DNA of 20,571 nucleotides, from contig JAHLKH010000321.1 in the NCBI GenBank assembly GCA_025526915.1, forward strand, positions 1 to 20,571, written 5' to 3'. Shown here piece after piece: positions 4,604 to 20,571 of the stretch. How positions within the stretch are numbered: position 1 is the first letter of the stretch; each line of letters starts with the position of its first letter. The notes beneath the pieces are model-generated. The model was given only the letters and a program-made list of their open reading frames with translations, was not told the origin of the DNA and did not search any database. Made by a program: the position numbers and the translations under genes. Source of the stretch: Entophlyctis helioformis (Eukaryota > Chytridiomycota > Chytridiomycetes > Chytridiales > Chytriomycetaceae).

Positions 4604-6446
4604 ATGACGAGTAAGGGAAACGGCGCAAGTGCAAGTGGGCGTCTGCTGCCCGTGTCGCTTCCTGACTCTGCGCTGCTCGTGACGTCGCCCTCTGCAGCCG
4701 TTTCATCAGCCTCGACCGTCTCGGGCATCGCTGGGTTCGGCAAGCGTCTTGCGCATTCAGGTACGTGGCTGCCGAGTTGCTTCTGGCAAATGCCTGCTGC
4801 ATGCCTGCCTGCACAGACTCGCAAGCGCCGGCCCGTCGTCGCCATGAACAGACAGCGGCAGTCGTGGCTGCGTATCCTGCGTCGCTGCTTCTGGCTGCTC
4901 AAACAGCTTCCTGTCCGCCTTGTCCGGCCTGCTGTTGTGCCGCCATCTTGCTCACACGTCTTGTTCGCCTGGCTTCCAGAAAAGAAGATTCGTGATCTGG
5001 CCGTCAAGTCGCTGCAAGAGTACCTCATCGCCAATGCAGAGGGTCTCTCTGACTTGGATTTCCTCAAGCTGTGGAAGGGTCTCTTCTACTGTGAGTCGCA
5101 CGCAGCAACCCAGCATCAATGCGCACATCTCCGAGGCTGTTCCACTGATCCGCGTATCCATTGCTCCGTGTGCATGTAGGCTACTGGATGTCGGACAAGC
5201 CGCTGATCCAGCAGGATCTGGCACAGAAGCTCGCGTCCACCATCATGACGCTGCCCGTGTCCCAGGCCCCGCGGTACATCCGCTCGTTCTGGAAGATCTT
5301 CCTCATGGAGTGGTACAACATTGACCGCCTCAGACTCGACAAGTTCTACCAGCTGTGCCGTCAGTTCCAGCAATGGTCGTTCCGGTGGTTGCATTCGCAG
5401 CACTGGAATACCGAGCTCATTGCAGAGTATCTGGCCATCATGAACGAAGGCCCATTGAGGTGGGTTGTTGCCGATCGCTTCTTTGGCAGTCTCGCTAGCC
5501 AGGCAGCTGACGGTGTGGCTGTTGGCAGTATCAACGTTGGATCTGTGCCGGACAGTCTCCGGTACCATACCGCCGAGGCACTGCTTCAGGAACTTGCCAA
5601 GGCACTTGCTGCCGAGGGCGTCGAGGTGGGCATCTCTTTTTCTGCAACGGTGCTGTCAAGTGTCGTGTGCTCACCGTCTGCTTGAATGCTTGCAATGCGC
5701 AAACAGACTCTTCCCAAGCACGCCTTTGACAGCATCACGGATCCATTCTTCCAAGCCCTGTCCAGGAGCCACAACCAGATGCTGTTTACGCGTCTTCGCA
5801 GCGAAGTGCTCGACCTCTGGCTCAAGGGTGAGGCGTGATGATGGGCCATCTGCAGCATCGACGTGACTAACATGTGCCAACATCTAGATCAAGATGAGAT
5901 GGATGAGGACGACGACGAGGATGCACAAGAAACGACAAGGACGACGCCTGCCTCGGTTGTCAAGTCGGTCCTGTCGCCAGACCAGCTGCTCGACCGTCTC
6001 CACGACATCATCTCGGATCCGGCCACTCTCCAGTGCAACCGCAGAAACCTGATTGCGTTCAACAAGGAGCTGGCCAAGTCCATGGGCAAGACGTACGTTG
6101 CCACGCCAGCCGTGCTTGGTGGCGTGCAGGGTTTCCCCGAGACCCTCGCCCCTTCTTCTTCGTTGTCATCCAAGGCGGACAAGAAGAGCAAAAAGGCCAA
6201 GAAGGCTGCCAAGGCGGCCGAGCGCTTGTCTGACGACGCCGACATGGACCAAGATGTCAACGAGAAGGAGACCAAAAAGTCCAACAAGCGCAAGGCTGCA
6301 GAGGTCGAGGCTGTCGATGCCGACGATGCCGAGGACGAGGCGGCAGATGAAGACGGCAGCGAAGACGTACACGAGCCCACTGTTGCCGATGCAGAGGACG
6401 ATGCTGATGACGCGGAGGGCAATGGCGATGCAGAGACAAATGGCAA

Positions 6447-7079: not shown

Positions 7080-7080
7080 A
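7075..7080 (+). promoter_or_regulatory. AATAAA poly(A) signal overlapping the RRP1 stop
   Basis: AATAAA spans the TAA stop at 7077-7079. Only 138 bp separate this stop from the NOP14 ATG, so RRP1 termination and the NOP14 promoter must share that interval. Confidence 0.5.
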
Positions 7081-7093
7081 TGACATGCCATTG

Positions 7094-7120
7094 CACCGTT
7101 CACCGTTCACCGTTCACCGT
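7094..7120 (+). repeat. CACCGTT heptamer repeat between RRP1 and NOP14
   Basis: There are three perfect CACCGTT units plus a fourth lacking its last base. It lies about 100 bp before the NOP14 ATG. It may be part of the NOP14 promoter or a simple replication-slippage repeat. Confidence 0.8.
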
Positions 7121-7217
7121 CGGCGAACCCATCCGCTTGTTGATCTGGAAGCCGCGTCGAATTCATAAACGAAAGAAAAAAAGTTTGGCCCAACCAAGCG
7201 CAACAGCAATCGCAGTC

Positions 7218-10200
7218 ATGGCCAAGGGACAAGGCGCCGGCGGGTCAGCGCTCAAGCGGCTCAAGAACTCGCTCAAGACGGCCGGCATCATCGGGCCGCA
7301 AGCCAAGGTGCGCAAAGTGTCCAAGACCAAGGGCAGCAAGAAGAAGCAGGTCGAGGCCGCCACGGCCCGCAAGGACGCCAAGACGCTGCTGCGCTCCATG
7401 TCGCAGACCGCCCGCGAATCCAACCCCTTTGAGATGCAGTTTGGCCGGCCCAAGCACGAGGTTCTTGGCCGCCGGGTCAAGGGCACCGTCGGCCGCCCCG
7501 GGCAGACCAAGAAGCGCTCAGAGGACATCCGCAAGAAGACGCTGCTCGTCGAGATGCAGCGCAAGAACAAGGACTCGGAGATTGTCGATCGTCGTATTGG
7601 CGAGAATGACCCGAACATGTCGGTCGAGGACAAGATGCTCGAGCGGTTCATGCGGGAGAAGACTGCTGCCGTGAGTGGTGCTGTGATGTGCTGTGCGATG
7701 CTGTGTGGAATGGCATGCTTTGCGATGCCGTGTGCTGACGGCATCGGTTGCTGCAGAAACGCACGGGCCATGGATCGGCATTCAACCTCGAGGACGATGA
7801 CGAGATCGAGCTCACCCACATGGGCAGATCCCTCAACGAGCCGGATGCATTCGATGATGCCGGCCTGCGCCGCATGGAGGACGACTCTGACGATGGTGAG
7901 CTGCGTGTCCCGACTGCGATCCTGTCGTGGACCCATGCTGACGCCTCGTGTGGCGGCGTGCAGAGGGAGGGCTTGATGCCGACTTTGTGAATGCGGCGCA
8001 TTTTGGCGGTTTCGGCAACGACGACGAGGCGGATCCCAACGCACGCAAGTCGCACAAGGATATCATGAAGGAGGTCATGGCCAAGAGCAAGATGCACAAG
8101 GTTGGTTATGCTTCCCCACGGCGTGGCCATGCGGATGCGGACATGGAGCTGACGATCGTGTACAGAAAGAGAGACAGAGGCAAAAGGAGGAGGACTACAA
8201 CCTGCAGACCCAGGTGGATGCCGAGCTCGACGACATTCGCAGTCTGCTCGCACCCATGGCCGAGACGCGTCCGCCGCCTCGCTCTGCCCGTCCGGCCGCA
8301 GCTGCGGATGGATCAGACGCGACTGCTGCTGCTGCACCCAAGCCGCCAGCACCGACCGACGAGGACTACGATCGGTTTGTCAAGGAGCTCGCCTACGAGC
8401 GTCGTGCCCAGCCCACGGACCGCCTCAAGACCGACGAGGAAGTCGCCTACGAGAGCAAGAACCGGCTCGAGAAGCTCGAGCAGGATCGACTCCGCCGCAT
8501 GCAGGGTCTCGAGGAGCAGGATGCGCTCATTGCCAGCGGCCGTGGTCCCAAGCGCGGCATCAAGCGTGCTGCACAGGGCGACGATCTCGGCGATGATGAC
8601 TATGCTGCCCATGTGCAAAAGACCATCGAGGACGAGGAGGAGATGCCGTTGACGTACAAGGACGGCAAGCTTGTCAACAACAAAATCTTTTTCAGCAAGA
8701 CCGGCGGCAAGAAGTCTGACGACGACGAGGATAGCGACGAAGATGGCAGCGACGAGGAGGGCAGCGATGACAGTGATGAGGATGATGAGGACGACGAGGA
8801 CGACGAGGACGACGAGGAAGAGGAAGAGGAAGAAGAGCAGGAAGAGAAGCGGCCTCGCAAGACTGTCAGCCGCGACACCCGCGACGAGTCCCTCGAGCCC
8901 GAGTTTGAGTTTGACGCTGGTCTCGACGAGGCAACACCATTCGAAGAGTACTCTGACGACGATGGCATGGGCGAGAACGATGACGACCAAGAGGATGGCG
9001 AGGGCGAGGACGATGAGTCTGAAGAGTCCGAGACGGAGGCTGCCGATCGTGCCGCTCTTTCCAAGGGCGGCGAGGACGAGGATGACATTCCGTACGCCCC
9101 CAAGACACCCGAGTCTCTGGACGACTTCCTCAAGCTCATTTCCGGCCGATCGCAAACTGCCAAGGCCACGATTGTCAAGCGGCTGCGCATCCTCAACCAC
9201 TCGCGTCTCGGCGCCACCGCCAAGGAGGCTCTCAAGAGCGTCACGATGGTGCTCCTCGAGTACCGCGACTACGTGCTCACACTGCCGACACCCGATCTTG
9301 CGTCACTCAAGGCGCTTGAGGGCCATACCGTCGAGCTGTCGCGTACCCATGCAAGCCTGGTGGCCGAGTACGCGATCGACCGTCTGACGGATATCCAGGA
9401 GACGCTTATCAAGGCCATGTCGTCCGAGTCGTCCAAGAAAAAGGTCGGCTTCCCGTCCCTGCCCGACCTCTACTTTTTGCGTCTCGTGGGCGAGGTGTTT
9501 TCAACGTCGGATCTGCAGCATGTCGTCATCACCCCTGCTATGCTTGTCATGGCCCAGTTCCTCGACCAGTGCCCGATGCGCCACATGCAGGACGCTGTCT
9601 CTGGGCTGTTCCTCTGCGAGATCTACTACGACTATGTGTTCGCGGCCAAGCGCTTTGTGCCCGAGATTGTCATCTTCGCCAACCGCCTCATTGCGTCGTT
9701 CCTTGGTCTGTCGCCAGCCAAGGTGCCGCTCATGGTTCCACTGCCCGGCATGGTCAACACTGGCTTTGCGATTGCGGACTTTTCTGCCGAGCCTGCCGAG
9801 CTGTCCCTGTCCCTGCTGCCGTCGCTTGCCAAGGCCAAGGCTGCCACGGACAACATCAAGTGAGTATTGCTGGTTTTGTTGATGGGGTTTGTAGCAGTTC
9901 TGACGCCTTGTGGTAGGGTTGCGTTGTTGGCACAGGCAATGCACTTGATGTCGCGGTGCGCGCGGCTGTGGAACGACACTGGATCCAACATTGAGATCTT
10001 TGAGGCCACCATGCAGATGCATGCGCTCGTGCCCGTTGACCAGCTGACTGGCAGAGCCAAGGTACACACCCGCCTGGCTCTCTGTTTGCAAGCCCACGCC
10101 ATGCAACATGATGCTAACATGCCGAAACATGGCGGCAACCAGGAGCTTGTCAACGAGGCCGCCAGCAACATCACTAGCCTCATCGCCAGCGCGTCACTCA

Positions 10201-10547
10201 AGCGCCGCCCCCTGCAGATGCAGAAGCGCAAAGCAGTGCCGATCGCCACGTACGTGCCCAAGTTCTCCGAAGGCTACTCGCACGACAGCCGCAGCAAGCA
10301 CGACCCTGACCGCGAGCGTGCCGCCGCCGCCAAGGAGCGTGCCCAGTTCAACAAGGAGAAGAAGGGTGCCATCCGCGAGCTCCGCAAGGACGCCGCCTTT
10401 GTCGCCCGCCAGCAGCTCGACGCCATCAAGGAGAGCGATGCTGCCTATAAGAAGAAGATGGACAAGATCATGGGCCAGTTGTCAAGCCAGGAAGGTGCCA
10501 TGCGTGGCTACGAGCGACAGGCCAAGAAGGGTCGGTCAAAGAAGTAG
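7218..10547 (+). CDS. NOP14: Nucleolar protein 14 (Nop14), SSU processome subunit
   Basis: Nop14 is a U3-associated subunit of the 90S/SSU processome, needed for 18S rRNA maturation in the nucleolus. Six exons (7218-7670, 7757-7895, 7964-8100, 8166-9859, 9917-10061, 10143-10547) give 990 residues, longer than yeast or human Nop14 because of acidic insertions. Family landmarks appear in order: NPFEMQFGRPKHEVLGRR (about 76-93), KKTLLVEMQRKN and VDRRIGE, FNLEDDDEIELTHMGRSL, then VMAKSKMHK. A very acidic stretch covers about 425-560. The helical core follows, and the C-terminal block has RRPLQMQ, PKFSEGYSHD, KKGAIRELRKDAAFVARQQ and a Lys-rich end. Introns have GT-AG ends and in-phase joins. The gene lies downstream of RRP1, so factors for both ribosomal subunits are adjacent. 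Confidence 0.97.
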
Positions 10548-12660: not shown

Positions 12661-13333
12661 ATGACTCGCACCAACAGAACCAACACCATTGCCGTGCAGA
12701 CCCACGACCGCTCGATTCCACGGTGAGCCATCCATCCATGCATCCATGCATCCAGCCATCCATCCAGCGTTGCTGCCAGTCTGCCGAGTCCAAGGTTGCG
12801 CCACTGACGTCGCATTGAATGGCATCGCTTGTGGCATCGCTCGCTTGTGGCATCGCTCGACTGCAGCAACGGTCGCACAGACACCACCAAGAAGGGCGGC
12901 GCAGGGCAGGGCAACTGGGGCAAGCCAGGCGACGAGCTCACGATGCAAGAGGCACACGACCTGGCGTCCAGCCCGCCAAAGACGCTGTCGTCTGCTGCGC
13001 TTGCGGTCAACAAGGTGCGTCGTCCATGGCAGCTCTTCCCTTGCTGCTCGCCCATGGCAGCTCTTCCATCGCAGCTGCCCAGGACTGCCCTGGCGCAATG
13101 CACGGCGGCTGTGTGCGCCAGCTGTGTGCGCCAGCTTGGAACCCCAACGAAGCTTATCCAGCGACGCGTGACTCACTCGCCCTTGATGCATTGTCATGCC
13201 GCTGGTGGTGCTGCGTGTGCTGCGTGTGTGTGTGCTGCGGGTGCTGCGGGTGCTGCGAGTGCAGATCCAGGTCGTGTCGGTGCCTCCAACGTCGACGGCC
13301 AACGAGGCTGCTGCTGCTGCTGCCCACTCGTGA
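12661..13333 (+). CDS. Stf2/Tma10-like small hydrophilic protein (copy 1, spliced)
   Basis: Three exons (12661-12722, 12867-13014, 13265-13333) join in phase to encode 92 residues. The start MTRTN and the motif KKGGAGQGNWGKPGDEL match the layout of yeast Stf2 and Tma10: an MTRTN-type start, then K-x-G-x-G-K-G-N-W-G-K-P-G-D-E-I. Stf2 is a hydrophilin linked to desiccation tolerance and originally described as an F1Fo-ATPase stabilising factor; Tma10 is ribosome-associated. The remaining residues are polar, with a poly-Ala run near the C-terminus. Exon 2 is well supported by a paralogue at 13986. Exon 3 rests on a phase-0 join and an open frame to TGA, so it is less certain. Both introns hold tandem repeats. 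Confidence 0.75.
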
Positions 13334-13985: not shown

Positions 13986-14183
13986 ATGGCCCGCTCTCGC
14001 AACAACAACAACAATGCCCGTGACCGCCAGCCGCACAACGGCCGCAACAACAGCTTCAAGAAGGGCGGTGGCGGCGCGCACAACTGGGGCAAGCCCGGCG
14101 ACGAGCAGTCGATTGAGCAGGCACGCCGCCGTGCAGACCGCATCACGTCGCCGGCCTCGTCTCCTGTGAAGCTGCACTTCTAA
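13986..14183 (+). CDS. Stf2/Tma10-like small hydrophilic protein (copy 2)
   Basis: Single exon, 65 residues. It has an Asn run near the N-terminus, then NGRNNSFKKGGGGAHNWGK and PGDE, followed by a short Arg-rich helix (QARRRADR) and the ending SPASSPVKLHF. The N-G-R-x-x-x-x-K-K-G-G-x-G-x-x-N-W-G-K-P-G-D-E block aligns without gaps with the spliced gene at 12661. The two are therefore tandem paralogues, one with introns and one without. Family members are hydrophilic and heat-soluble, with proposed roles in desiccation tolerance, ribosome association or ATP-synthase regulation. The start is the first ATG of the hydrophilic frame; the longer upstream frame translates leader repeats. Confidence 0.8.
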   Translation: MARSRNNNNNARDRQPHNGRNNSFKKGGGGAHNWGKPGDEQSIEQARRRADRITSPASSPVKLHF

Positions 14184-14899: not shown

Positions 14900-15132
14900 A
14901 ATCTCGAATTTAACTAATGGCCCAATATTCGGCCCGATAAAGATACAATTACCAAGGATTTTGGAATTGGATTCGTCGCAAGAGGCGTCGAAAAGAAGCC
15001 CGCGTATCACACGATGGAAGGTTCGAGTCAGCAACAAGCATGCGACGACAGGCGGGCGAGGCACACCAACCAGAGGCTTACCTTTATCGTTAGAAAAAGT
15101 GACCCGTTAGGTCGATCGGGAGGTGCCCCGAT
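14900..15132 (-). ncRNA. Candidate Fanzor guide RNA (fRNA/omegaRNA) region
   Basis: This block starts at the base after the Fanzor stop and runs downstream on the same strand. GC falls to about 42% by hand count over 14881-15000, against a clearly GC-rich surrounding. Hairpins on the minus strand: 15115-15132 (ATCGGG/CCCGAT, 6 bp); 15101-15113 (GACC/GGTC); 14972-14992 (TTCGACGC/GCGACGAA, 7 bp with one A-A mismatch); and 14946-14969 (CAATTCCAA/TTGG-T-AATTG, 9 bp with one bulged T). A GGCC/GGCC inverted pair lies at about 14917-14935. TnpB omegaRNAs and Fanzor fRNAs are encoded at or just past the 3' end of the nuclease gene, so the position fits. The exact ends and the guide segment cannot be set from one copy. 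It could instead be a structured 3' UTR or an unrelated ncRNA. Confidence 0.4.
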
Positions 15133-18100
15133 TCAAAGTTGGTAGTCAAACAAGTCACTGTGTGGAATGAGTGACAGGTGACTTGAGGGCAGGCTGTCTG
15201 CGTGCTGGTCGCAGCTGGACGACGGATGGACCGTGTCTTGAACGCTGCTGTACAGCACGTCTTGAACGCCACAGGACGGCAGGCTGATCTGGTCCCATGA
15301 GGCCACATGCGACTTGAAGTGTTTCCGCGTTTGAGGCTGTGGGACAACAGACGGAGCATTTCTTGCACGCAGCTGGATGGAGATATGCATTGCCGCGATG
15401 CTGTTGAGGTGCGCTTGCGTGGCTGGATTGCTGTCGGCTTTGGTGTGCGTCAAGTAGAGCGGCCGGTGTCCAAAGAGCAGATGCCACAGTGCAACCATCC
15501 CGATGTTGGTGGCTCCAAGCACATCGCGGTGGTAGACGGTCGTGCATGGTATGCACTCGTAGCGTCGCAGGTTGGTGCGGTTCTCGTATGGGATCCGCTG
15601 CTTGCACTGCGGGCACATCTGGCTGGTCAGGTTCTCGTTGCAGCGGTAGATCTGTGTGTGTGTGTGTGTGTGTGTGTCAGTTGGTGCACAGATGGATGGA
15701 TGGACAGTGTGGCATCAGACGCACATAGGCATATCCAGACGACCGCAGATGCCTGATGAGAAACCTCTCAAACACAGCGTGCCGGCCACCTTGACCTGTA
15801 AAGTCAATGCCAAATGCCCACACAACGGGAATGTCCTTCTCTGTTGGCTTGTCACAGCGACCTTGAGACGCAGCAGATGCGCGCTTGCCAGTGGTCGATC
15901 CTGCCAGCTTCATGATGCCCTCAAGAGCGTTTCCGCGATCAGACGTGCGCTTGCAGCGCATGGCAAACCGCTTGTCCTTGACCTTCTGTGGAATGCCATG
16001 CCATGCCATGCCATCCAGTGCAATCAGCATGGCGATCAAGCAGCTTGGCGGCCATGTCAATGGGCATTCAGAAACAGAGAAAACGTACCCGTGCATTCAG
16101 GAATGGCGTGCAGTACGCATGGCAGCGCAGATCCCAAAAGGCTCTTTCGCCAGGCTTGACGTTTGGATCGGCATGCTTTGCTGTCTTGAATGCAATGGCC
16201 GCCTGGATGTCGGCAGCCTTGGCATATCGATCAGCAAACCTGACACAAGAGGCAGGCACTGTGAGTTGATCTGGTCAAGAGTGCGCGTGGCGGAGTCATT
16301 GCATGCATACCACCGCTGAAAGTCACGCTCAGCTTGAAACATGCCAGAGGAGAGCACGTAGTTGGCCTCGAGCTTATACGAAAAGTCTCTGAGATCAACC
16401 AAGATGCTGGACGCGCCATACAGGTACCGCTGGCCCCAATCAAAGCTGACAACGCGAACAGTCTGGTAGCCTTGGTCAGTGAACAGATTGTTGGCGTTGA
16501 CAATGTTGGGCAGTCGCTGCGAGGCGTAAAAGTTGCGCTGGGCCTGTCATGCCATGGCATGAGTGAGGAATGTGCAATGCATGTGCACCAAAGCGCGAGG
16601 TTGGCATGCAAGTGGCTTACAGGATTGGGCGTGTATGGCTTGGTGGTTGACGGGTTGGCTGGATCGGCGGCTGTGGATGGCATGTCAGTTGGTGTGGACA
16701 ACAAGTGCGCGTCTGAATTGGCACAGCAACTCACATTCGCCGTTAATGTAATCGGGCTCGCCATCAGCCTCGTCAACAAGCCACGGCTGCTCGCCTGAAG
16801 ACGCTGCGTTGGGATCTGCAGATCAAGGCGGCAGTCAGAATCCATGTGTGCACCATCGCATTCAAGCATGCCACATACAGCAAGGTGACTCTGGACGGTT
16901 TGTGCGGCAGTCCAGAGCCAGCTGGTAGATGCTGTATCCATCCGTCATGATGCTGCCAAGTAGGATCGCCTTGGCTGGTCTTGCTGGACGCACAGCATCA
17001 ATCGCAGCCTTGATATGCTTCTCGTGCTCCTTGCCAACCAGACCCTGCTCGTCGGCCTCTTGCGTCGCCTTGGCTGTTGCCTTGGCAACCGCGTCCATCT
17101 CATCTTTGGCTTCTGAAGGTGTCTGGAAGCGACCTTTCTTGGGGCGGAGACCTGGGAGAAGGATGTCAAAGATGGAAACCTCGCGACTTGCGCTGAATGC
17201 GTCTTGGATCATGCTATTGGGCAACTCAAGAGCTGACTTGGCATCTTTGTAGCCTTGGAGAAAAGTGCAGAGTCAGCATCAAATTGTGTACACATGGCAT
17301 ATACAGGCAGTGCGACCAACCAAGTGCAGCCAGAAGCTGTAGTCTCAATGCCTGCAAAGCAGGATCCTGATTGCCACGGATGCGCTCATCCTTTGTCCTC
17401 ATCACCGCCCAAAAGAGGGTGGTCTCAGTGATGAGGACAAACGGATCACGGCCTGCAGGCTGCGGACACAACTTGAGGGATGAGCCTGCGAGATCACACA
17501 ACTGCTTGAACTTGCCGGCCTCTGACAGCGACTTGTTGCGCACGACCGCCGTGAGCCTGTGCAGTGCTTGTGGGATCTTGACAACGCGTCCGTCTTGTCT
17601 GGTCGACAGTGGCGTGCCAGACGTGGCGTCCCCGGTGGCTGTATCCATTGCCTTGGCAAATTCCGCTGCCTTGTCAGCAGATATACCAGGAATCAGTCGG
17701 TGGATTGCCCAGTCAATGAGCATCGACTGGTGGGTCATGAAGTGCACAGCAAGCATGCCACAGATGCCCCGTGCAAGGTTGCTGTAGATGTCGTTCCGAG
17801 CAGCTGCACACAAACTGTCGTCAAGCCTGCCAGGCAAAACGGCATGCATCGTGCTTGCATCCATGTGCACAATGGCTGACAGCAATGAGCCGGCCTGCGT
17901 CACGTCCATCTTGGCTGCCCGCGCCACACCAGCCTGCATCTTGGTCATGCTGTCCCGGATCATCTGCTGCGTCCATTCGCGGTTGATGATCATCTGCATG
18001 ACCGTCACAATCCACGAGTGGGCCACATGCTTTGTTGCCCGCGGCATGACTGACTCCTGACCGGTGAGAATGTAGCCCAGGTATCGCAGGAGCATATCAA

Positions 18101-20571
18101 CAGCACCCTGGCCACCAGAGGTGCTGTTTGTGAGCACCTTGAGCAGATCATTTGCCGATGGTACTGCCCGTTGTAGTGGTGGCTCGATGGCTGGTGGTTG
18201 GGCATCGGTGCTGCTGGATGCTGCGGCTACTGCTGCTGGTGCTGCTGTTGCTACTGCTGCTGTGTCGTCGGTGAAGGTGCAGATCTTGACCATTGTGCCC
18301 ACCTCAAGTCTCACCAAGTCGCCATAGTGAGCAATGTCGGTGTTGCTGCAGAGCGGGCCTTCGCCGTACATGCGCTGGGCATTAACGGGCCATCTGAGGA
18401 CGCATCCAGCGGCGTAGAGCCACGCGCTCTCGTCCTTGAAGTGATCAGGATCAATATACACATATTCCATCTCACCATTCCTCCTGGCCTCCATGACGCA
18501 GAACTTGAGTGGCAGCGGTGCATCTGGGTCAAGTGCGACGAGCTCTTCAACGATGGCGCCGATCATAGTGATGCATGCATGCCGCACGTCGGCCGTGTAT
18601 TGGTACACGCCATTGAAGATGCTTTCTGAGACCGAACCGCGGGTCTGTGTTGCCGGCGCCGTCTTGGCCTGGTGTCCAAAATACTTTGCAAGCATTGGAT
18701 CTCCAGAGAGCATTTCCTGTATGTAGCACAAGTCAGCATACACAAAGCCAGACATGCAGAGCAACCTGGCAATCCAAACTCATACCTCCATTTTGACGAT
18801 CTGCTCAGGGCGATTGTATGTGCTCTCCACTGGCCTTGCCTCATTGCCATGGATGGCAGCAGCAGCTGTCATGACTGGCAATGCCATCATGCGGTGGATC
18901 TTTTCAAGCATCTGCTCTATCGCCGATCTTTCACCACGCACACATCTGTCAAAGAACGCACCGGTCAGCACACACACTCAAGGCACATGCCATGCCATAT
19001 GCCACTTACGCCCGTGTCTCGGCATCAGATGGAGCCTGGCGGGCTTGCCTGCTTGCATCCTTCTTGTGCTCCTGGATGAACTTCTTGGTCTTGGCCTTCT
19101 CAGCTTGCTCAGCTCGCTCCTTATCACGCTCAGCCTGCATGGCCGGTGTGACCAGGTATGGATCCTGCCGTGGTTGAATGCAATGTTAGGCGTCCATCTT
19201 GAATGTGCACAAGATGCTCGCAATCACAAGCCTGCAGTTCAACTCACAGTCGTCCTTGTGTCTTGAAGCACACCAATGTGAAAGACCTTGTCGCAATCTG
19301 TGCCTCTATCATCTGCGGCTCGAGGTGGCAGCAGCATCTTGCATGGTTTTGGTGGCTTGACAGCCTGTTGAGTGGAAGGATAAGCAATTGCAGCAAGCCG
19401 TCACATGCAAACAGAGCCAGCAAATGCAAAGACGCACCGGTACTCGATTGATAATTGACTGCAGCATCTGCTTTGCTTGGTCATAACACTCGCCAAATTC
19501 TGACACTTGGAAATCAGCATGCCTGACATCCGTTGGGTTTGTCAGGGCATTGAGCGTCTTTATGGCCGTTTCGCGAATATTGGCAACAGCTTCTGGGGTC
19601 GCAATCCGTGTGCTCCTTCTGAGCGGCTGCTTTGTCTTTTTACCCTTGACTGTCACACAAATGCCATGATCAGTGGTGAATACACAATGCCACACTGTGT
19701 CAACCCATGCAGAGCGAACCTGGCGTTTTTAGACGCCTGAAAGATGCGCATTTCAAGCCTGGATACTTCTTGAGCCGCTCATTCAGTCTTGCTATCACAT
19801 TCTGCTCGCCCAGTAATGGATCAAGCCGACAGCATTGAAGATCAGCAACAGCATGCAGTGGACAGCCAAGACACGCATCCAAGCCTCGCAAAACCCACCA
19901 ATGCATGATAAAGAATCTTGCCAGCCGGGCTGAGCCTTGCATATGCTTCTTTAGCGATACGCCAGTCATGCACAGCCTGCAGCAGCTGCTTGCTTGCATT
20001 CTCGCAGATATCAGCAAGGATGTCGCGACCGTTGAGAATGTCGTTGGCGAGGAGGTCTGCCGTGCATCGGAGAACGCAGCTAAACACGACACGGCAGCCA
20101 TTGAGCATGACAAAAACGTCGTCCAGTCGCCTTGTGTTGACAATGTGCTTGGCGAGCACCATGACTTCAATCCCGTGTAAGGTGCCAAACCGCACCACTG
20201 GCATTGCCCTTCAGCTGCTGTGCCGTGTGGCTCAAGCAGCAGTCATTGCAGGCCGTGCATGCAGAGGCAGATCTGCCAGTGGCATCCCTCAGAGTCCAGT
20301 GCCATGAGAATCCTCCAGAGATCACAAGCACGCCTACTTTTTTCGAGCCGAGGCGGCCCTGTTGGCAGTCCTGCTGTTGCCATTGGATGATGCATGCATT
20401 CATGTCAATGCCATGCTGTCCAAGTGCATCCAAAGCAAGACTTACAGCGGTATCATTTGAGCAAAAACATCCCCATAACAACCATGGCTTTGGTCTGTGA
20501 ACTCTCCAATATCCGCTCCAGTTTCGTCACAGTTGAGAAACCACCGCGAAGGCATTGCTGAACGATTGAGC
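15133..20571 (-). CDS. Fanzor-type (eukaryotic TnpB-like) RNA-guided nuclease with very long N-terminus
   Basis: The model has exons 20446-20555, 19899-20208, 19720-19801, 19438-19649, 19248-19364, 19010-19164, 18786-18945, 17321-18716, 16879-17253, 16735-16815, 16621-16670, 16311-16543, 16089-16239, 15725-15985 and 15133-15651. All joins are in phase, giving 1,403 residues from the Met at 20555; the frame stays open to the window edge. The C-terminal core has T-D-G (951-953), RuvC-I SFDWGQR (D1051), AFGID (D1205), NENLTS (E1237), a zinc ribbon C1244/C1247/C1264/C1267 and RuvC-III HRD (D1274) followed by GATNI. Fanzors are programmable RNA-guided DNA nucleases related to transposon TnpB. Residues 1-900 are unrecognised: a basic NLS-like KGKKTKQPLRR (169-179), a charged helix (286-315) and an Ala-rich linker (533-563). 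The intron at 20209-20445 may instead hold a small in-frame exon. Confidence 0.85.
15653..15677 (+). repeat. TG microsatellite forming the last Fanzor acceptor
   Basis: A (TG)n tract at the 3' end of the last Fanzor intron. On the coding strand it reads (CA)n ending in CACAG, directly before the zinc-ribbon exon, in place of a polypyrimidine tract. Confidence 0.9.
15993..16012 (+). repeat. ATGCC pentamer repeat inside a Fanzor intron
   Basis: Four perfect ATGCC units inside the intron at 15986-16088, close to its acceptor. Confidence 0.9.

Follow-up and report, generated by a model that had tools for sequence, protein, structure and literature searches.

An intron-rich, transposon-borne Fanzor1-like gene family in the chytrid Entophlyctis helioformis and a predicted FEN/EXO1-like domain encoded upstream of it

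Fanzor1 proteins of the TnpB lineage mostly have 600 to 700 residues (PMC11423790), and published Fanzors, which have a single nuclease, range from about 500 to 800 residues, with the largest at ~800 (PMC11423790, PMC10711439). Some Fanzor transposons number hundreds of copies (PMC10711439). Here, we analyzed contig JAHLKH010000321.1 of the chytrid Entophlyctis helioformis (assembly GCA_025526915.1), a window of 20,571 nucleotides that comprises the whole contig. As judged from its sequence, the window carries the 3′ portion of a Fanzor1-like gene borne by a transposon; this portion encodes ~1,350 residues. Paralogs continue upstream into a predicted FEN/EXO1-like 5′ nuclease domain, and we estimate the full-length protein at ~1,750 residues (~400 + ~1,350). 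On balance, we lean toward a transposon-borne fusion of an EXO1/FEN-like 5′ nuclease with a likely RNA-guided RuvC nuclease, whose guide RNA would likely come from the 3′ end of the element.

The described system most like this one is SpuFz1 of Spizellomyces punctatus (Bao and Jurka 2013; Saito et al. 2023). Both share the C-terminal motif, the relocated Glu and the zinc ribbon, and both reside in a chytrid, on a transposon with terminal inverted repeats and with a candidate guide RNA between the stop codon and the 3′ repeat. In contrast to SpuFz1, a single open reading frame of 633 to 638 residues, the present family is intron-rich, has ~1,350 residues in the window part and ~1,750 predicted in full-length paralogs, and carries an extra N-terminal FEN-like domain. 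SpuFz1 also has D383/N385 where we find D-W-G, so that position +2 from the Asp holds Gly instead of Asn. Cas12a likewise bears a large extra N-terminal part on a TnpB-lineage RuvC nuclease (an insertion of ~900 residues; PMC10432273), but in the present family that part contains a nuclease-like domain; no CRISPR array was noticed, although no search was aimed at such arrays. Since hundreds of copies are already published for Fanzor transposons, a high copy number is not new. What is new is the size, the predicted second nuclease and, as far as the literature seen goes, the intron pattern. The full protein would exceed all Fanzors known to us in size and be the first to carry two nucleases. 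Titles and abstract openings, with subscription literature mostly outside the search, mention neither a Fanzor in Entophlyctis nor a FEN-fused Fanzor.

The C-terminal part of the window protein matches PF07282 (TNB/OrfB zinc ribbon; E = 1.6e-9), and a score of 38.2 bits against a cut-off of 26.3 indicates that the match is not due to chance. The published Fanzor motif, D-X(125-275)-[TS][TS]XX-C4-X(5-50)-RD (PMC3627910), is complete: 188 residues separate Asp 1063 from Thr-Ser 1252-1253, TSQM precedes the first of the four Cys, and five residues lead from the last Cys to the R-D, whose Asp is residue 1286. A catalytic Glu relocated to a position before the zinc ribbon has been described for Fanzors (PMC11423790), and the Glu of NENLTS, directly ahead of the ribbon, probably corresponds to it. 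Gly 1215 and Glu 1249 appear to occupy the sites of Fanzor1 G500 and E536, with a spacing of 34 versus the published 36. On the minus strand, TDG, SFDWGQR, the four Cys, R-D, GATNI and GHRPLYL follow one another, with the NENLTS Glu ahead of the Cys, in the order of signatures read by a first-pass annotation, whose assignment to the TnpB/Fanzor lineage is borne out by both profile and motif. The host is a eukaryote, as befits a Fanzor, and the NCBIfam profile of prokaryotic TnpB (guided_TnpB) scores 18.4 bits, below its curated cut-off of 100. PDB sequence searches returned no Fanzor chain, and their only TnpB-derived rows were LaTranC, at E = 0.4.

In a splice model built from the sequence, the frame is open on the minus strand from 20208 to 15133 across 14 exons and 13 GT-AG introns; these are exons 3 to 16 in the numbering of a first splicing pass. 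The intron richness and the open frame noted initially therefore stand; the initial count of 15 exons and 14 introns is not reproduced exactly. As the window spans the entire contig, the gene's 5′ end lies outside it. Comparison with paralogs assigns 20571-20467 to the end of another domain, as this stretch matches AQSFSNAFAVFLNRDERGADIGE of paralogs L046, L048 and L055, given a one-base shift near 20543. The initial model upstream of ~20168 was thus wrong, and a 5′ model starting at the ATG at 20555 was rejected on the same grounds. At ~1,350 residues, the window part alone exceeds the published Fanzor sizes; the unusual length first reported is real, but the figure of ~1,400 residues is too low for a family whose paralogs add an N-terminal FEN-like domain. 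GenBank model P0002 shares junctions 12/13, 13/14 and 14/15 with our model and then leaves the frame. A C-terminal profile search of proteins gave eight matches, all from E. helioformis (Chytridiales) and none from another species. Structure prediction of exon 9 had low confidence and gave no confident fold match.

The genome of E. helioformis contains at least 150 TNB-encoding copies. This count is a lower bound, as 150 of the 205 candidates in the TNB profile search were scored, all above the cut-off, and the window's own copy lies outside that list. Of 19 paralog stretches compared at their 3′ ends, 16 lose homology to the window at 14928-14933; among the exceptions, L010 stops at 14966 owing to a small deletion but does have the element end, L023 stops at 15020, and L026 falls short of the region. 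The window's element accordingly ends sharply at 14931, beyond the end at 15133 assigned at first. The family has two kinds of element ends. The window's kind terminates in ATATCGGGCC, and CCGGTTCTCATA stands directly ahead of CCATTACC in 12 of 13 such elements examined, with the full GGCCCGG in 7. The second kind has 48 extra bases and a different inverted repeat, GAGGGGNNGGCAAT; in three elements with this end, 9-bp flank repeats agree by eye at 8, 7 and 6 of 9 positions. The family ends pair as a 23-bp inverted repeat with 19 of 23 matches, also by eye. A word of at least 8 bases is common to both flanks in 8 of 13 related elements versus 5 of 156 mismatched pairs; the shared words are mostly 8 to 11 bases long (16 in C24), and 5 of the 13 elements lack a clear duplication. 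The end tag occurs 194 times in the genome and the 5′ motif 95 times, with no occurrence of the reversed controls. Related elements thus show the terminal inverted repeats and target-site duplications of a cut-and-paste DNA transposon, and a 974-bp derivative of the element exists. Seven open reading frames from the upstream parts of two elements have no Pfam match, and hence no recognized transposase, and duplications of ~8 or 9 bp together with these ends fit several transposon superfamilies. The copy number, common 3′ end, inverted repeats, target-site duplications and short derivative together indicate that the gene belongs to a transposon family and is not a single host gene.

Two other boundaries were considered as element ends. 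The 5′ boundary of L011/L028 was rejected after further comparison of the paralogs and of related elements' ends, and the J19/J20 boundary is merely a drop in identity. A repeat of ~260 bp (~83 to 98% identical) has been inserted many times into Fanzor elements (L024:7497-7753, L027:3865-4129, L012:2939-3207 and L018:5320-5579). A solitary 25-nt end tag at L020:8069-8093 lies outside the Fanzor element, shares only the last bases and may be the terminus of a different element family. The window-type elements L039 and L027 have in common, upstream of the FEN-like domain, ~1.7 kb conserved at 84%, which starts with tandem repeats of a ~27-bp unit (by eye); the upstream open reading frames tried in L039 had no Pfam match. 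One scan found no viral contigs.

The conserved region of ~200 nt between the stop codon and the element end is probably structured, and we infer that it is a candidate omegaRNA, which would take its guide from the flanking host DNA. When up to 3 mismatches are allowed, its 37-nt core occurs 179 times in the genome (0 for the reversed pattern), and 82 of the 100 matches listed are exact. RNAalifold on 36 copies predicts 34 pairs, which include two hairpins near the beginning; the covariation term is weak, and a single pair has changes on both sides. The last bases ahead of the flank pair with an internal GCCC. A variable hairpin was added by hand after the alignment had been viewed, so the following pair statistics are supportive, not independent: with it, 17 cells show double-sided changes versus 6.0 in shuffles (a level that none of 500 attained), and sliding gives no more than 9. 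By contrast, 4 pairs carry such changes versus 2.7 in shuffles, an unremarkable number (74 of 500), and the count of additional pair types is likewise unremarkable (479 of 500). Rfam gave one match, under its gathering score. We also considered the 34 of 100 listed core motifs without a listed TNB as "ghost loci," a notion rejected because the window copy itself is among them.

Upstream of the part held by the window, the paralogs encode a domain that we predict, from its sequence and a structural model, to be a FEN/EXO1-like 5′ nuclease. Its acidic motifs VD, HVDG, EAD, DSD and ND presumably follow the FEN/XPG/EXO1 motif order. In an alignment of 31 rows, limited to loci with at least 55% coverage and cleared of stretches that match poorly, the acidic metal-binding columns hold D in 24/24, D in 27/27, E in 25/31, D in 26/30, D in 30/30, D in 30/30 and D in 30/31 of the rows with a letter. 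J19 begins with an MGI-like start, and the 13 best Foldseek matches of the low-confidence model are EXO1. The domain therefore resembles the FEN/XPG/EXO1 superfamily in motif order, start, predicted topology and structural matches, and differs from it in scoring below the Pfam cut-off, in its predicted fusion to a Fanzor and in being transposon-borne.

The placement of this domain is consistent with a joint protein. The best 150 of 194 FEN-like matches collapse to 88 loci. For 49 of these, a same-strand TNB is listed no more than 12 kb downstream, in 41 cases at 4.8 to 6.5 kb; TNB lies on the wrong side in none and on the opposite strand in one. At the junction, the donors of J28 (AG|GTATGT) and J19 (AG|GCAAGT) are both in phase 2, and J25 has AG|GCAAGT at the same place. 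Acceptors ~220 bases after the donors in J28 and J19 are likewise in phase 2, which yields an in-frame splice path in two divergent subfamilies.

Several observations weigh against this fusion of two nucleases. All Foldseek matches have E values above 0.001, and from rank 27 on they include unrelated folds; the model has a mean pLDDT (predicted local distance difference test) of 52.6, with residues 186-280, which hold the last acidic motifs, below 50. Pfam XPG_I_2 scores 12.3 bits (E = 0.12) against a cut-off of 24.2, and a PDB profile search with the domain found no FEN chain. Among the matches listed, 39 of the 88 FEN-like loci have no TNB downstream. The junction introns are long (~220 nt), that of J19 with a GC donor, and an automatic gene finder kept the open path through the junction but chose other small exons. 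The public gene models retrieved have 217 to 332 residues, in a search that admits proteins only up to ~1.75 times the query length; database searches admitting long proteins found no long protein. In the window copy, the N-terminal part is interrupted by frame shifts near 20543 and near 20168; this copy may be defective, or the contig end may carry sequence errors.

The long junction intron, the GC donor, the short models and the failure to find a long protein would also be explained if a FEN-like gene lay directly upstream of a separate Fanzor gene, with the two proteins acting jointly or independently. We consider such an arrangement unlikely, as the junction phases agree in both divergent loci that can be read and the downstream exon has no shared start codon at its head in J19, J20 and L028.

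If the two nucleases are fused, a mechanism can be outlined. The 3′ RNA would serve as omegaRNA, with flanking host DNA supplying the guide, and an empty site matching that guide would be left by excision of the element or by its absence from one allele or sister. There, the guided RuvC part would cut, the attached FEN/EXO1-like part would trim or resect the 5′ ends, and repair by homologous recombination would copy the element back in. Only tentatively do we extend this to a single two-nuclease polypeptide of ~1,750 residues that both makes the break and prepares its ends for recombination, in a family that spans at least 150 transposon copies; the flank of each copy would give it a new target, and exons would be exchanged between copies through unusually conserved introns. 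Alternatively, the FEN-like part may not act on target DNA and may instead process guide RNA or mRNA, or only bind nucleic acid. XRN1/XRN2/Rat1 and T4 RNase H are among the structural matches, and the fold also houses XRN-type RNases, but the best Foldseek rows are EXO1; though this is not decisive on substrate, the alternative seems improbable to us.

Recombination between paralogs is the trace expected from such a machine, and divergence among copies was measured between the window and 14 paralogs, several of them mutually close, with L024, the nearest to the window, set aside and gapped sites left out. Introns 10-12, of near-constant length, differ at 5 to 10%, compared with 29 to 42% of synonymous and 16 to 27% of nonsynonymous sites in exons 10-12. 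Introns 13-15 differ at 3 to 9%, compared with 11 to 28% and 5 to 11%, respectively, in exons 13-16. Introns closer to the 5′ end, where most paralogs offer few sites, show 16 to 27% divergence, still below the 38 to 53% synonymous divergence of exon 9. Incompatible site pairs within 100 bases are rarer than in any of 500 permutations, which indicates recombination in the 3′ half. Our reading is that copies exchange sequence and that introns are homogenized the most; nothing favors structured intronic RNA or mobile introns over recombination as a source of the intron conservation.

The ratio of nonsynonymous to synonymous divergence (dN/dS) is 0.18 to 0.71 against the paralogs and 0.35 to 0.92 for L024, below 1 in 44 of 44 comparisons, so at the sequence level the protein is under purifying selection between copies. 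This selection, the identity of 82 of the 100 listed cores and the lack of visible frame shifts across the FEN-like part of J19 and J28 make us doubt that the family is decaying and no longer active, its copies relics conserved by past selection and gene conversion, even though J20, like the window copy, has frame shifts, a 974-bp derivative exists and only short public models were retrieved. A domesticated gene maintained in the host genome, as proposed by the first-pass annotation, could account for the many introns and the purifying selection but is highly improbable given at least 150 copies with a common end and the inverted repeats and target-site duplications of related elements.

Should the fusion be real, a natural RNA-guided cutter joined to a 5′ end-processing nuclease would offer a ready-made design for biasing repair toward homologous recombination, and would supply a testable explanation for the presence of Fanzor on transposons. 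One sequenced chytrid, whose copies number at least 150 and have a candidate scaffold in common but different flanks, offers a natural library of guides, targets and protein variants.

Table 1. Features of the Fanzor1-like element in the window
Feature	Position	Strand	Remarks
Expected target-site duplication GAATATTG (if 8 bp) and first would-be guide bases	14923..14930	-	Inferred from related elements' flank repeats; 5′ repeat beyond contig
3′ terminal inverted repeat; also guide-proximal end of candidate omegaRNA	14931..14953	-	Reverse complement GGCCCGATAAAGATACAATTACC; 5′ counterpart GGCCCGGTTCTCATACCATTACC on related elements
Candidate omegaRNA (guide-RNA scaffold), stop codon to element end	14931..15133	-	Conserved in 36-sequence alignment
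37-nt core of candidate omegaRNA (exact copy)	15097..15133	-	
Exon 16 (last)	15133..15651	-	Glu 15636-15634; Asp of R-D 15525-15523; stop 15135-15133
Zinc-ribbon Cys codons, exon 16	15615-15613, 15606-15604, 15555-15553, 15546-15544	-	
Exon 15	15725..15985	-	VVWAFGID strand; usual RuvC-II Glu absent there
Exon 14	16089..16239	-	Splice model
Exon 13	16311..16543	-	RuvC-I Asp codon 16441-16439
Exon 12	16621..16670	-	Splice model
Exon 11	16735..16815	-	Splice model
Exon 10	16879..17253	-	TDG strand
Exon 9	17321..18716	-	465 residues; beta-rich, then helical middle region
Exon 8	18786..18945	-	Splice model
Exon 7	19010..19164	-	Splice model
Exon 6	19248..19364	-	Splice model
Exon 5	19438..19649	-	Splice model
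Exon 4	19720..19801	-	Splice model
Exon 3 as modelled	19899..20208	-	One-base shift near 20168 relative to paralog L028
Remnant, end of FEN-like domain	20467..20571	-	AQSFSNAFAV / FLNCDETGADIGEF; extra base near 20543; truncated by contig end
Introns 10-15	16878-16816, 16734-16671, 16620-16544, 16310-16240, 16088-15986, 15724-15652	-	Unusually conserved between paralogs

Host genes occupy other parts of the window. An exon of a Nop52/Rrp1 homolog (PF05997) at 5149-5682 (+) lies upstream of an intron-containing Nop14 gene (PF04147; host ribosome assembly) at 7080-10544 (+). A small HABP4-like gene (PF04774) at 13986-14180 (+) has a similar segment near 12890-13015 (KKGGAGQGNWGKPGDE, by eye), possibly a tandem duplicate. 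Elsewhere in the genome, a syntaxin-like (t-SNARE) host gene at L029:1-381, recognized by eye, adjoins the insertion site of the J19 element.

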